Below are positions 3,533-25,647 of a stretch of DNA of 64,000 bases, piece after piece. Source of the stretch: Rhizobium sp. C1 (GTDB lineage Bacteria > Pseudomonadota > Alphaproteobacteria > Rhizobiales > Rhizobiaceae). Numbering within the stretch: position 1 is the stretch's first letter; each line of letters starts with the position of its first letter. A model generated the notes under the pieces. That model saw nothing but the letters and a program-made list of their open reading frames with translations. It was not told where the DNA came from and did no database searches. The stretch is taken from NCBI RefSeq assembly GCF_021026335.1, contig NZ_JAJNCY010000008.1:62001-126000 (forward strand), read 5' to 3'. The position numbers and the translations under genes are program-made.

Positions 3533-5428
3533 ATGCCGATTGCATCGCTGCGCGATATCGAAACGCTTGAAGAAACGACGGCCGAGGCCGTCTGGGCCAG
3601 AGGCTCGGTCTATGAGCAGATCGCCCGTGTCGCGGAGCGTAGTCCGGAAAGGGTCGCGATCCGGGCGCTGCAGAGCGGGGCGGCGGACACGCCCGTCGAA
3701 ACCGTCACCTATGGTGCACTGCTGCGGCGCATTCATGCGATGGCGCATCTCTTCCGCCAATGCGGAGTGGGGCCGGGGGACGCCGTCTCGATGCTGCTTG
3801 CTACCGTGCCGGATGCCTTCGCGGCGATGATCGGCGCGCATCTGGTGGGCCGGGCCAATCCGGTCAATTTCCTGCTCGAGCCCGCGCATATCGCCGCCTT
3901 GCTGAAAGCCGCCAAGGCAAAAGTCCTGCTGGTGCCGGACGCAAGCGTTCTTCCGGGCATCATCGACAAGCTGCCGGCCATTCTCGCGGCGCTGGACACG
4001 CCCTTGCATGTCTTCCGCGTGGGGGGGCAGCCTGGCGGGGCAGATGATGCCGTTCGCTCCATCGATGACGCCCTGTCGGGCCAGCCGCAGACCCGGCCGG
4101 ATTTCTGGCGCGCGCCGGCGCCCGATGATATCGCGGCCCTCTTCCACACGGGCGGAACGACCAGCACGCCGAAGCTCGCGGTGCACAACCATGGCGGCAT
4201 CGCGCACCATTGCTGGGCGCTGGGATCGGCCTGGTGCAAGGGCGAAGACGAGATCGTGTTCAACGGCCTGCCGCCCTTTCATGTCGGTGGCGGCTATGCG
4301 GCGGGTCTGATGCCGCTCTCGCTCGGCGCCGAAATCGTGCTGATGACGGCGACGGGCTTTCGAAATCGCGATGTGATTGCGAATTTCTGGCGGCATGTCG
4401 AACGTTTCCGACCGACCGTGGTCGCCATGGTGCCGACGAGCTGGAGCGCGGTGATGAATGTTCCGGTCGAGAACGCCGATATCTCCTCCGTTCGCCTCTG
4501 CCATGCGGGCGGCGCGGCGATGCCTCTGGAAACGGCGCGTCAGGTGGAGCAGCGGCTCGGCCGGCAGATTGTCGAAGGCTGGGGCATGACCGAGCTTCAT
4601 GGCTTCGGCGCGATGAACCCGGCGACGGGCGAATGCCGCATCGGCTCCGTCGGCTTTCGCCTGCCTTTCACGGAGATCATTGTCGCGAGAGTCGAGGCCG
4701 GCCGCATCGCGCATGTCTGCGAAGCCGACGAAGCCGGCCATGTCCTCGTGCGCGGCGAGCAGGTCTTCGGCGGCTATCTCGATGCGGCGCATAACGAGAG
4801 CGCCTGGTATGACCCCTTGCCGGGGGAGGCGAGGCCAAACTGGAGCAAGGGTGGCCGCTGGTTCGACACGGGCGATCTGGGGCGCAAGGATGCGCAAGGC
4901 TATCTCTGGCTCACCGGCCGCTCGAAGGACGTCATCATTCGCGGCGGTCACAATATCGATCCGCTGGTGATCGAGGAGGCGCTTTATCGTCATCCTGCGG
5001 TGGAACTGGCTGCGGCCGTCGGCCGGCCGGATGCCTATGCCGGCGAATTGCCCGTTGCCTTCGTCCAGCTGCGCGCCGGCCACGAAGCCGAAGCAGATGT
5101 GTTGCGTGCCTTCAGCGCTGAATTGATCGCTGAACGCGCGGCCGTGCCGGTCGCGGTCTCCATTGTTCCGGCCATGCCGCTGACGGCCGTCGGCAAGATC
5201 TTCAAGCCAGCGCTCCGGGAGCGGGCCGCGGTGGAGGAGGTGCGCTCATGGGCAAACGGTATGCTCGGTGACACCGTGGTAATAACGGCCCGACATGACC
5301 CGCGCCACGGTCTGCTTGTCATCATTGAGCCACCACCCGTCACGCCCATCGCTACGCTGGACGCCCTCAAGCACCGGTTGGCTGTCTACCATTTTGCAAG
5401 CGAGATCATCGGTCTTGAGTCATACTGA
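3533..5428 (+). CDS. AMP-dependent acyl-CoA synthetase
   Basis: A 631-residue ANL-superfamily ligase (acid + ATP + CoA to acyl-CoA). The phosphate-binding motif FHTGGTTSTPK is near residue 205, the GWGMTE motif near 347, the hinge block DTGDLG...GRSKDVIIRGG near 450-470, and the catalytic C-terminal Lys in VGKIFKP near 560. The start ATG follows a strong AGGAGG ribosome site at about 3520. About 60 residues after the last canonical motif form an extra tail not needed for catalysis. Last of four co-directional genes; it could activate the acid made by the nearby aldehyde dehydrogenases. Substrate unknown. Confidence 0.9.
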   Translation: MPIASLRDIETLEETTAEAVWARGSVYEQIARVAERSPERVAIRALQSGAADTPVETVTYGALLRRIHAMAHLFRQCGVGPGDAVSMLLATVPDAFAAMIGAHLVGRANPVNFLLEPAHIAALLKAAKAKVLLVPDASVLPGIIDKLPAILAALDTPLHVFRVGGQPGGADDAVRSIDDALSGQPQTRPDFWRAPAPDDIAALFHTGGTTSTPKLAVHNHGGIAHHCWALGSAWCKGEDEIVFNGLPPFHVGGGYAAGLMPLSLGAEIVLMTATGFRNRDVIANFWRHVERFRPTVVAMVPTSWSAVMNVPVENADISSVRLCHAGGAAMPLETARQVEQRLGRQIVEGWGMTELHGFGAMNPATGECRIGSVGFRLPFTEIIVARVEAGRIAHVCEADEAGHVLVRGEQVFGGYLDAAHNESAWYDPLPGEARPNWSKGGRWFDTGDLGRKDAQGYLWLTGRSKDVIIRGGHNIDPLVIEEALYRHPAVELAAAVGRPDAYAGELPVAFVQLRAGHEAEADVLRAFSAELIAERAAVPVAVSIVPAMPLTAVGKIFKPALRERAAVEEVRSWANGMLGDTVVITARHDPRHGLLVIIEPPPVTPIATLDALKHRLAVYHFASEIIGLESY

Positions 5429-5654
5429 AGACCGGTTGCTTGCCGGAATGCGATCCTGAGCCTCCTTCCGCCGGCCGCGTCAGATCGAAAGTGCCGGCGG
5501 ACTTGTGCATTGCGTTCGACCTTTCCCTTCGGTACCTCGAATTTTGCAGATATCGGCAATGGACCCTCTTGCTCCAAAGAGCCTATGGCGATGTCCGTCG
5601 ATTGGTCTGCAAAGTTGCACCCAGATGGGCGGGGTTTCCTCAGACTTTTCCGCC

Positions 5655-19960: not shown

Positions 19961-20182
19961 TGAGCCGCGCCTGGTTTTCCGGAGGCTTCAACTTCTGAGA
20001 AAGTGGAGCTGACATGCGCAGGACAACGAACGAGTTCTCAGCTGAAATGCGTGAGCGTGCCATCCGCATGGTGCTGGATCGCGAAGCAGAACTTCCGCGT
20101 CTACGGCGTTCGGAAGGTATGCATGAAGGAGATCCGAACCGGTCGCGTTCGCTACCCTGGAATGGGTAGACTGGTTCAATCA
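19961..20182 (+). mobile_element. IS3-family insertion sequence relic
   Basis: It starts with a 27-bp end sequence (TGAGCCGCGC... to 19987) of the kind that opens IS3-subgroup elements. An ATG follows at 20014 for the first codons of OrfA (MRRTTNEFSAEMRERAIRMV). Near 20080 the frame joins an internal OrfB piece (QNFRVYGVRKV), and a third piece in another frame gives ATLEWVDWFNH, the OrfB integrase-core end. The element is thus internally deleted and frameshifted, and the right end is missing. The same 27-bp end occurs at 31147. Confidence 0.78.
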
Positions 20183-20240
20183 CATAAAATCTCTTTCGGT
20201 GATTGACCCTTGAGACCAATGCGGCAATTGTAACTTCCAT

Positions 20241-20450
20241 CGTGGTTCTACGGGTGATGCGACCCGTAGCTAAGAGGGAATACGGTGAAGGTGCTCGATG
20301 CGCCCATGCCGAAGCTGCCCCCGCAACTGTAGGCGGAGAGCCGTCGTCCATTGATGTCACTGAGGCGGATACCTCGGGAAGACGGACGACGGTGATGACT
20401 CGCAAGCCAGGAGACCTGCCGCGATACATATCGTCCACGGGCGGGGTGTC
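20241..20450 (+). ncRNA. Cobalamin riboswitch 1 (upstream of thioesterase)
   Basis: The conserved cobalamin core is present in order: AAGAGGGAA near 20272, GGTG at 20284, the B12-box segment GCTGCCCCCGCAACTGTA at about 20314, CACTGAGG near 20359, GGGAAG near 20375, and GCAAGCCAGGAGACCTGCC at 20402-20420. A GGGCGGGGTGTCCC stretch at 20440 probably belongs to the expression platform. It is 90-100 bases upstream of an acyl-CoA thioesterase gene in the same orientation. Cobalamin binding would be expected to lower expression of that gene. Boundaries are approximate. Confidence 0.92.
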
Positions 20451-20539
20451 CCGGTGTGCCGCTTTGCGAACGGTACGCCTTTGTCCGTCTCGCGGATCGT
20501 CGTGCCAGCCTTTGCCCATCACCTTCGGGGTACAAGGAA

Positions 20540-21346
20540 ATGAGCATGAAGACGCAGAAACCCATCGAACGAGAACCAATTGCGCAACCGGTCTCCACCA
20601 GCCTTATTGATGTGGTTTTCCCCGGCCATTCGAACCATCATGGAACCCTTTTCGGAGGCGCAGCCTTCGCGCTCATGGATCGGGTTGCCTTCATTTCGGC
20701 GACGCGGTTCGGCCGGGTTCCTTTCGTCACCGCCTCATGTGAACGGATAGATTTCAAGTGGCCAGTGCGGATCGGCCAAATTGTCGAAGCGACGGCGCGA
20801 CCTCTTTGGGCGGGGCGGAAGACACTCACGATCGAGGTGGAGCTGATCGCCGAAAACCTGCTGGGTGGCGAACGGCGAACCTGTACGCGGGGCCTCTTCA
20901 ACATGGTTGCTGCAATTGGACAGGACGTTCCATCGGATTGGGCATTGGCGACTTTGCCGCGGCGCGGTGGTTATCAGGCCCGTGAAGGCGAAACCGTCAT
21001 GACCGAAATTGTCTTTGCCGATCAGTCCAATGCATCGGGCAACATGTTCGGTGGAGAGGCGATTGCGGCGATGACAAAGGCGGCCTTCGTCTGTGCCACG
21101 CGCCATTGCCGAATGCCGACGGTGGTTGCCGCATCCGACGAGGTGCATTTTCATCATCCCGTGAAAGTGGGCTCCATCATCGAACTTGTCGCGCATATTT
21201 CCAGAAGGGGGAACCGCTCGATGGTCGTTGCGGTCCAGCTTTGGGAAGAGGGTGTTCTGTCCGGAAAGCGCTCGATGGCGGCCGAAAGCCGGTTCACCAT
21301 GGTGGCAACGAAGGTCGGAGATGCCCCGGAATCCTTGGCGCTTTGA
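20540..21346 (+). CDS. Acyl-CoA thioesterase with two hotdog domains
   Basis: A 268-residue protein made of two tandem YciA/BACH-like hotdog repeats. Repeat 1 has FPGHSNHHGTLFGGAAFALMD (residues about 28-48) and repeat 2 has FADQSNASGNMFGGEAIAAM near residue 160; each carries the N-x-x-G-x-(L/M)-FGG motif of hot-dog thioesterases. It hydrolyses acyl-CoA to acid and CoA in the cytoplasm. Start is the first ATG of ATGAGCATG; AAGG lies just before it, better spaced for the second ATG at 20546. The cobalamin riboswitch just upstream is unusual for this family and suggests the enzyme is needed when B12 is scarce. Confidence 0.88.
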   Translation: MSMKTQKPIEREPIAQPVSTSLIDVVFPGHSNHHGTLFGGAAFALMDRVAFISATRFGRVPFVTASCERIDFKWPVRIGQIVEATARPLWAGRKTLTIEVELIAENLLGGERRTCTRGLFNMVAAIGQDVPSDWALATLPRRGGYQAREGETVMTEIVFADQSNASGNMFGGEAIAAMTKAAFVCATRHCRMPTVVAASDEVHFHHPVKVGSIIELVAHISRRGNRSMVVAVQLWEEGVLSGKRSMAAESRFTMVATKVGDAPESLAL

Positions 21347-21423
21347 AAGGTCTCCTTCAGTTTCCACAGTCAAAATCCGTTTACATGTTGACGGAAACGC
21401 AAGGATTACTACTATATCTAGTG

Positions 21424-21650
21424 TTCGAGGTTCTCATCGATTCGGCATCGGTTCGATGAGCTAAGACGGGAATTCGGTAGCGGACATGATGTTCGTGATG
21501 CCGAGGCTGCCCCCGCAACTGTGAACGGCGAGTGTCCGCGCCAACATGCCACTGGGATTTCCCGGGAAGGCGGCGCGGGTGCATGGAGCTGTGAGCCAGG
21601 AGACCTGCCTGGAACAAAACGTCCGCCGGCGGGGTGTCCGGCAGGGTGCG
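21424..21650 (+). ncRNA. Cobalamin riboswitch 2 (upstream of nrdHIEF)
   Basis: Conserved blocks in order: ACGGGAATTCGGT near 21466, GAGGCTGCCCCCGCAACTGTG near 21503-21523 (core GCTGCCCCCGCAACTGT), CCACTGGG near 21549, CCCGGGAAGG near 21561, and GAGCCAGGAGACCTGCC near 21594-21610. A CGGCGGGGTGTCCGG segment near 21626 matches the one after riboswitch 1. About 220 bases separate it from nrdH. Cobalamin control of the B12-independent ribonucleotide reductase is known in bacteria that also own the B12-dependent class II enzyme. Confidence 0.93.
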
Positions 21651-21867: not shown

Positions 21868-22089
21868 ATGTCCATTACCGTTTATTCCAAGCCCGCCTGC
21901 GTTCAGTGCAACGCCACCACCCGCGCCCTTGACCGGCAGGGTATCGACTACACCGTCGTCGATGTCTCCGAGGATGCCCAGGCTTTCGCGCTGGTCCAGG
22001 GGCTAGGCTACCGCCAGGTGCCCGTGGTGATTGCCGGGGAGCAGCATTGGGCAGGCTTCCGTCCGGACATGATCAGCGCTCTCGCCTGA
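21868..22089 (+). CDS. nrdH: NrdH glutaredoxin-like redoxin
   Basis: A 73-residue redoxin with the CVQC redox pair at residues 11 and 14 and the NrdH-type ending WAGFRPDMI. It passes electrons from thioredoxin reductase to class Ib ribonucleotide reductase NrdEF. First gene of the nrdHIEF operon; expression is presumably reduced by cobalamin through the riboswitch at 21424. An AGGAA lies five bases before the ATG. Confidence 0.95.
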
Positions 22090-22100
22090 GATCCGGCCCC

Positions 22101-22486
22101 ATGGGCGGTCTCGTCTATTTTTCCAGCACATCGGAAAATACCCGCCGCTTCGTCGAGAAGCTGGGGATCGAGGCGCTGCGCCTGCCGGTCACGCCGGGCG
22201 ATGACCTGCCGGCCGTGACGCGGCCCTATGTTCTCGTGACACCCACCTATGGCGGTGGCGAGGACAAGGGCGCAGTGCCGAAACCGGTCATCCGCTTTCT
22301 GAACGACCCGCATCATCGAGCGCTCATTCGTGGCGTGATCGCGGCGGGCAACACCAATTTCGGCGCGGCCTATGGGCGCGCCGGCAAGATCATCGCAGAC
22401 AAATGCGGCGTGCCGCTTCTCTACCGGTTCGAACTTCTCGGCACGGACGAGGATGTGGACCGTGTCAAATCAGGACTGGAACGATT

Positions 22487-22499
<13 letters not shown>
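22101..22499 (+). CDS. nrdI: NrdI flavodoxin-like maturation protein
   Basis: A 132-residue flavodoxin-fold protein. The FMN phosphate loop [11 protein letters not shown] starts near residue 7 and TPTYGGG follows near residue 47. NrdI supplies the oxidant that builds the dimanganese-tyrosyl radical in NrdF. ATG at 22101 is 11 bases after nrdH, and its 3' end overlaps the proposed nrdE start. Confidence 0.95.

Positions 22500-25647
<3,148 letters not shown>

Follow-up and report, generated by a model that had tools for sequence, protein, structure and literature searches.

The window (the whole analysed stretch of 64,000 nucleotides from Rhizobium sp. C1) contains a cobalamin riboswitch aptamer of the metE type at positions 20226-20437 (riboswitch 1; forward strand, as for all features below). 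It matched Rfam family RF00174 with 126.8 bits (gathering score 31.5, E 1.8e-31) over model positions 1-189 of 189 and is thus complete, and our own covariance model R1, built partly from the riboswitch 1 sequence, gave 134.4 bits. The aptamer has the B12-box core and the conserved junction columns common to 25 other sequences (alignment A2). Its nearest kin are metE-type riboswitches, with 87% over 244 bases to that of a Ciceribacter locus (L051). Riboswitch 1 is followed on its strand by an open reading frame for a tandem-hotdog acyl-CoA thioesterase of 268 aa, here called TE (20540-21346). A preliminary description of this DNA had recognized a cobalamin riboswitch upstream of a thioesterase gene, and the complete Rfam match with TE directly after it bears this out; the span given there, 20241-21346, starts 15 bases after the first base of the aptamer and is correct apart from this. 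A hairpin resembling P13/L13 follows the aptamer at 20436-20456 with the loop CGGGGTGT, and its segment GGGCGGGG is identical in 16/16 aligned leaders. As in the riboswitch class generally, this hairpin would presumably kiss the GCCCCC loop of the aptamer.

Downstream of TE lies riboswitch 2 (21411-21626; RF00174, 115.2 bits, complete), which was absent from the preliminary description and which falls among nrd-type riboswitches (the smallest such group has an SH-aLRT of 100). It precedes a class Ib ribonucleotide reductase unit, nrdHIEF, consisting of a glutaredoxin-like nrdH of 73 aa (21868-22089; read by eye, with position and length as in annotated relatives), nrdI (22101-22499; TIGR00333, 158 bits, and PF07972), the nrdE frame (22403-24640, conserved part from about 22535; TIGR04170, 1277.8 bits) and the nrdF frame (24637-25647; TIGR04171, 477.3 bits).

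TE starts at ATG 20540 or at the in-frame ATG 20546, both right behind AAGGA; a longer GTG frame from 20456 is an unlikely start. The protein has two stretches of PF03061 (4HBT hotdog, 113 bits), and among solved structures it is closest to 2GVH, the Agrobacterium protein AGR_L_2016p, which is its best PDB match (E 1e-83, TE residues 10-261). YciA was ruled out as the identity of TE by an NF007970 score of 75.1 against an equivalog cut-off of 162 bits. In ACOT7, Asn24 and Asp213 act together, and Asp44 is catalytic in YciA (PMC2698920, in part); no activity for the 2GVH protein is given there. An alignment of 84 TE rows shows no variation at N30 and D45 of the first domain (83/83 rows having a residue there). 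Position 162 of the second domain is Asn in 68/82 rows (N162 in TE) and Ser in 14/82, and the position of its Asp is Asp in 0/82 rows, being Gly, Thr, Ser or Ala instead. Since the first-domain pair is invariant and the second-domain Asp position is never Asp, the alignment suggests one complete active site per double hotdog.

TE is 48-56% identical to compared relatives whose NrdE is 88-94% identical, so TE changes fast, which fits loose specificity as well as dedicated specificity. Broad substrate ranges are common among hotdog thioesterases like TE. We know of no B12-dependent thioester hydrolase, and TE, a hydrolase by homology, probably does not catalyze the same reaction as a B12-dependent enzyme.

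Predicted control of TE and the genomic background

The leader contains a predicted expression platform (20510-20537), in which CTTTGCCC (20510-20517) would form a helix with GGGGT..AAGG (20527-20537) that masks the Shine-Dalgarno sequence. The minimum free energy fold shows this helix, with the segment in its RNA form CUUUGCCC paired with GGGGU..AAGG, and the local fold has -9.7 kcal/mol. The alternative partner of this segment is GGGCGGGG of the downstream hairpin (20439-20446). Both helices are complementary in 14/16 aligned leaders; the other two, L054 and L068, have another complementary pair by eye. Because the leader columns barely vary, and so offer little covariation, and because the z-score of the leader stretch is -0.41, no more stable than shuffles, the Shine-Dalgarno switch remains a prediction. 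A terminator controlling TE was considered and rejected, because a pattern scan was negative for the interval from riboswitch 1 to the start codon. The Caulobacter metE leader was reported to repress translation with B12 (PMC6538847, in part). As the leader, Shine-Dalgarno region and start codon of the window match those of metE, TE is likely repressed by B12, with direction and mechanism both inferred. With plentiful cobalamin, the leader would be bound and the hairpin loop engaged, the other helix would hide the ribosome-binding site and translation of TE would be off; with scarce cobalamin, TE would be made.

The source genome (4.53 Mb, 22 contigs, 99.69% complete) contains seven cobalamin riboswitches in total. 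The other five precede genes for a BtuD-like ABC ATPase, a CbiM-like transporter, bluB, a GbcA-like Rieske protein and cobU; except for the Rieske protein, which is glycine-betaine-oxygenase-like, these targets were read by eye from adjacent frames. MetE was not found in the genome by a profile search that was positive in 10/14 control genomes, so a surviving metE copy was rejected, and the MesX model found no MesX there. The MetE model also picks up MesD, at 2e-27. The genome encodes a B12-dependent NrdJ (573.2 bits over the frame), a 1262-residue frame that is MetH-like by a domain match rather than by a MetH model and that has a B12-binding domain, and a single match to PF01642, the B12-dependent acyl-CoA mutase family, with a B12-binding domain in the same 728-residue frame. 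By score and size rather than by a tree, this single mutase is apparently a methylmalonyl-CoA mutase. TE and a B12-free ribonucleotide reductase therefore coexist with B12-dependent systems.

The riboswitch before the Rieske gene lies on another contig (C11; L006, 1501-3140) and scores 86.9 bits. The Rieske oxygenase reached 508.8 bits with NF058607, under the cut-off of 670. Its genome has, in addition, a gene for an MtgC-like corrinoid protein (L134), which scores 212 bits against a cut-off of 370. The oxygenase perhaps demethylates glycine betaine with O2 and without B12, as a counterpart of the corrinoid route.

Recurrence of the pairing and its changing partners

A scan of named genomes with alignment A1 gave 126 TE loci, of which the best 80 by similarity, a non-random sample, were kept. 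Their layout was read by tblastn of partner proteins and with R1. A same-strand cobalamin riboswitch lies upstream of TE at 66 of these best 80 loci. The order is riboswitch-metE-TE at 43/80 (in L042 metE is a remnant) and riboswitch-mesX-mesD-TE at 2/80 (L108, L114), and at 21/80 the riboswitch stands directly before TE, including loci of Rhizobiaceae, Azospirillaceae and Sphingomonadales; L098 of Sphingobium sp. SYK-6 is of this direct kind. Thirteen of these 21 direct loci are divergent from mesX-mesD with metR behind TE. Same-strand nrd genes with a riboswitch occur downstream of TE at 17/80 loci, mostly immediately; the nrd unit comes behind metR in L061 and after about 2.7 kb in L065. 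The upstream riboswitch is absent from 14/80 loci (L038, L041, L053, L079, L081, L083, L084, L085, L086, L087, L104, L106, L110 and L113), two of which, L083 and L053, are cut by contig ends. Two loci carry doubtful labels. L038, labelled 'Bacillus subtilis', has a Pseudochrobactrum-like TE region, L053, a contig of an 'Arenimonas' MAG, has a rhizobial TE-nrdHIEF order, and both are probably mislabelled or misbinned.

The training set of R1 consisted of 26 sequences taken from the window and the TE loci, which makes its matches there partly circular. It also scores divergent riboswitches poorly, giving 22.9 bits for the riboswitch before the Rieske gene. Rfam, run on 20 of the 80 loci, agrees with 7/8 R1-positive and 12/12 R1-negative loci; the R1 match in L044 is not over the Rfam gathering score, and without this locus the upstream count is 65/80. 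As a control, R1 found a riboswitch at 0/27 other hotdog thioesterase loci with flanks of up to 1.5 kb, and Rfam found none at the 20 of these 27 that were searched. With seven riboswitches in 4.53 Mb, a given gene would have one on its strand in the 350 bases before it with a probability of about 0.0003. Compared with 21/80 direct pairs and 66/80 in all, the pairing exceeds chance. Recurrence of the pair in other genomes, which the preliminary description had proposed to survey, is thus found, at 66/80 TE loci and in two classes of Pseudomonadota. Because the pairing recurs, mostly with B12-independent backup genes, and is found at 0/27 control loci, TE is by its genomic context a recurrent member of a B12-shortage regulon, and a B12-shortage role of TE is well supported by this context.

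TE itself is uncommon. Full-length TE was found in 3/151 genomes of the family, of which 126/151 have some hotdog match, and tandem TE in 6/385 genomes of the class, two of them (G279, G395) at contig ends and G279 showing one domain only. Nine genomes of the class sample match at 1e-40, of which G338, G439 and G469 are single-domain and were left out of tandem TE. A riboswitch or metE lies beside TE in 3/6 of the TE genomes of this sample (G000, G526, G576); the order in G526 is riboswitch-TE-metE, and G576 has metE beside TE. In G469 the single-hotdog gene lies upstream of a riboswitch-metE unit and not behind the riboswitch.

The frequent company of methionine genes raises an alternative, that TE serves B12-independent methionine synthesis by MetE or MesX/MesD, e.g. 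by clearing an inhibitory thioester or supplying a methyl precursor. Its position behind metE and behind mesX-mesD on one riboswitch (43/80 and 2/80), as well as beside divergent mesX-mesD with metR behind TE (13/80), agrees with this, and TE is common to two distinct kinds of methionine synthase. Still, neither the MetE model, which also detects MesD, nor the MesX model matched anything in the source genome, so TE does without a B12-independent methionine synthase there. Moreover, ribonucleotide reductase genes follow TE in Azospira, and stand-alone riboswitch-TE pairs occur in seven places of the TE tree, though in those genomes other than that of the window metE may lie elsewhere. A methionine-related function seems quite improbable to us. 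MetR is a homocysteine-responsive activator whose regulon includes PF08908-metE2, i.e. mesX-mesD (PMC4239095, in part). With metR behind riboswitch-TE, the switch may gate the mesX-mesD locus through MetR.

The TE tree was calculated from 82 rows, after L049 and L107 had been dropped because their sequences read short and L139, L141, L143 and the window had been added; L083 was grouped with metE though its contig ends before any riboswitch. The label changes needed on this tree are 12 for metE, three for mesX-mesD, seven for stand-alone pairs (for seven rows) and eight for loci with no riboswitch, so TE changes its partner often and the switch was lost or absent several times too. The TE of the window stands on a long branch (1.44), and its exact place in the tree is unsure. 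The switch is often kept while its partner varies among metE, mesX-mesD and none, with ribonucleotide reductase genes in Azospira. Direct placement of the riboswitch before TE at seven separate positions in the tree argues that control of TE itself is under selection.

Proposed origin and probable mobility of the arrangement

The alignment with metE-type leaders covers the Shine-Dalgarno region and extends beyond the start codon of metE, after which the window reads TE in frame. The junction sequence is GGGGTACAAGGAAATGAGCATGAAGACG in the window and GGGGTACAAGGAAATGAGCATCAAGACG in metE of L051 and L050. Three aligned TE starts also contain GCATGAA, so the junction lies within a short stretch common to metE and TE. 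The simplest reading is that an in-frame loss of metE put TE on the riboswitch, ribosome-binding site and start codon of metE, and we infer that the window order would have arisen in this way from the common order riboswitch-metE-TE-riboswitch-nrdHIEF.

Among the TE loci compared, blastn matched the 630 bases upstream only in the window's own locus. The stretch 19990-20206, immediately before riboswitch 1, carries pieces of an IS3-family transposase whose frames are interrupted by stops. The decayed remnant at 19990-20097 has 82.7-88.0% identity over 107-110 bases across the five matches listed from 169 plasmid records; two of the five are annotated there as IS3 family transposase. This remnant is possibly the edge of an acquired island. 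In five congeners, searches of the nrd region gave riboswitch-core matches only and no nrdHIEF, nor was there an NrdE-like second match to the NrdJ model, and full-length TE was absent from both congeners examined for it. Thirteen plasmid records contain TE, at 38-57% identity. A Shinella plasmid has the order riboswitch-metE-TE-riboswitch-nrdHIEF, a Sinorhizobium medicae plasmid riboswitch-TE-metR-mesX-mesD and then riboswitch-nrdHIEF, and a Sphingomonas plasmid riboswitch-TE divergent from riboswitch-mesX-mesD. On a plasmid of the betaproteobacterium Azospira sp. I09 (L152), a TE that is 38% identical to that of the window directly follows a riboswitch and is followed by aerobic and anaerobic ribonucleotide reductase genes; the divergent arm has a riboswitch before genes for a TonB receptor, an ABC transporter and cobalamin adenosyltransferase. 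Since TE is uncommon, the two congeners examined lack it in full length, plasmids carry copies and an IS3 remnant lies upstream, the island is accessory and probably mobile.

These plasmids carry further genes near TE. The Azospira region combines B12 independence with B12 uptake in one island, on a plasmid typed as conjugative, IncP. On the Shinella plasmid (L139, NZ_OZ000532.1, 3968-5197) a gene for a GbcA-like Rieske oxygenase (257 bits, below the cut-off) lies just upstream of the riboswitch-metE-TE-riboswitch-nrdHIEF unit, and Rfam found no riboswitch directly before it on its strand; on the same plasmid a riboswitch leads a gene with a (2Fe-2S) ferredoxin domain and an ABC transporter. 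On the Sinorhizobium medicae plasmid (L151, 5555-8496) the riboswitch divergent from that of TE is followed by genes for a DUF1636 protein, a methyltransferase and an ABC transporter.

Mobility also permits the explanation that TE is a hitchhiker on a mobile island which came directly under the switch by accident when metE was lost in the window. The five congeners without nrdHIEF, two of them also without full-length TE, the 13 plasmid records, the IS3 remnant, the metE-TE fusion and the 14/80 loci without an upstream riboswitch would all fit such a history. An accident would not account well for a switch directly before TE at 21 loci in several lineages and on one betaproteobacterial plasmid, for a switch that is kept while its partners change, or for N30 and D45 in 83/83 rows with a residue there. 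We consider mere hitchhiking distinctly improbable.

Candidate substrate and role

The preliminary description had supposed that acyl-CoA substrates of B12-dependent mutases pile up in B12 shortage. This premise is published for the alphaproteobacterium Methylobacterium extorquens, where plasmid-induced cobalt limitation raised methylmalonyl-CoA 35-fold, ethylmalonyl-CoA 6-fold and propionyl-CoA 3.6-fold and cobalt reversed the effect (PMC2773004, in part). In the same organism, YciA, which is broadly the same type of hotdog thioesterase as TE, was used in vivo to release acids from esters of the ethylmalonyl-CoA pathway (PMC10560148, in part). Of the two mutases named in that description, the methylmalonyl-CoA enzyme is apparently present in the source genome; an ethylmalonyl-CoA mutase was rejected there, as the single PF01642 match looks like the methylmalonyl-CoA enzyme, and the part of the idea that concerns ethylmalonyl-CoA is inapplicable to this genome. 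The neighbours of TE were also inspected as a substrate clue, and ten proteins at eight loci, most without a riboswitch, included nothing plainly related to propionate or methylmalonate.

A B12-dependent acyl-CoA mutase was found in 72/79 TE genomes (45/50 and 27/29) vs 233/385 genomes of the class, an enrichment with a Fisher p of about 2e-8 in which kinship and genome size are ignored. It was sought in 79 of the 80 TE genomes (not L038) with a cut-off of E 0.001, and in the class with E 1e-40; the best matches of the positives are far below both. The genomes without a match are L087, L088 and one Pseudochrobactrum clade (L039, L041, L042, L043 and L044), with which the mislabelled L038 groups. 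Draft gaps are a possible cause for single genomes and hardly one for the clade. NrdJ over the cut-off was absent from G096, the one clade member examined for it. The clade has thus perhaps abandoned B12, but not TE. The riboswitch of this clade is weak in L042 and L044 and was not found in L038 and L041. The TE system may be decaying, or have turned constitutive, where the B12-dependent enzymes are gone. In L042 (Pseudochrobactrum sp. sp1633, 5044-5557) the weak riboswitch scores 46.7 bits and overlaps the remains of metE, and the TE that follows is intact; among its relatives, metE is kept in L039 and L044, and L041 has neither riboswitch nor metE.

We favour, at about an even chance of being right, an explanation in which TE is a B12-shortage gene, placed behind the old switch of metE, that hydrolyses acyl-CoAs stranded by a mutase without its cofactor. 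TE would then hydrolyse methylmalonyl-CoA and the propionyl-CoA behind it, which would return free CoA, and the acids could leave the cell. This freeing of CoA is the best available candidate mechanism for TE, and the substrate is the least certain part of the explanation. The exceptional clade bears on a different possibility, that TE is a general CoA-recycling or acid-releasing enzyme of B12-starved cells with no special tie to a mutase. TE is kept in Pseudochrobactrum without a mutase match, and the fast change of its sequence and the breadth common among enzymes of its type are what a general enzyme would lead one to expect. Control by a riboswitch, though, calls for a B12-specific reason, and the mutase is commoner in TE genomes than in the class, so we regard a purely general role as unlikely. 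The favoured hydrolysis of stranded acyl-CoAs could be taken further. TE would then act as a dedicated, riboswitch-triggered acyl-CoA overflow valve, the excreted acids would parallel the methylmalonic acid excretion of human B12 deficiency, and TE with metE or mesX-mesD and ribonucleotide reductase genes would form a B12-independence module spread by plasmids. This extended proposal falls somewhat short of an even chance. The pairing offers a testable answer to the question how bacteria handle acyl-CoA build-up when B12 runs out, and a thioesterase target recurring in two classes of Pseudomonadota would add damage control to the kinds of riboswitch targets.

With respect to known systems, riboswitch 1 belongs to the RNA family that controls metE in the Caulobacter type of cobalamin riboswitch control (PMC6538847, in part), and the leader, Shine-Dalgarno region and start codon of rhizobial metE riboswitches match those of the window. 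Unlike these systems, riboswitch 1 would control a thioesterase, and metE was not found in the genome. At the mesX-mesD-flavin reductase locus with metR (PMC7857596, PMC4239095), loci of the Agrobacterium type place TE and metR behind one riboswitch, divergent from mesX-mesD; the word thioesterase is absent from the main texts of both papers. The double-hotdog thioesterases 2GVH, ACOT7 and ACOT12 (YciA being a single-hotdog form) share with TE the tandem domains and the first-domain Asn and Asp, and unlike them TE lies behind a B12 riboswitch and its second-domain Asp position is never Asp. Proteins built like 2GVH thereby gain a candidate physiological role. A large survey grouped the targets of cobalamin riboswitches into B12 synthesis, B12 transport, cobalt transport, isozymes and unknowns (PMC3766115, in part), and the word thioesterase is absent from its main text. 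A literature search covering parts of papers, supplements aside, found no published record of a cobalamin riboswitch paired with a thioesterase, and in the parts seen of papers naming both no link is drawn between them. As in the class of isozymes of B12-dependent enzymes defined by that survey (PMC3766115, in part), TE keeps company with metE, mesX-mesD and nrd genes behind cobalamin riboswitches; unlike the isozymes, it probably replaces no B12-dependent reaction and would at most relieve a block. Control by a cobalamin riboswitch is of a known kind, and the thioesterase as its target is new.
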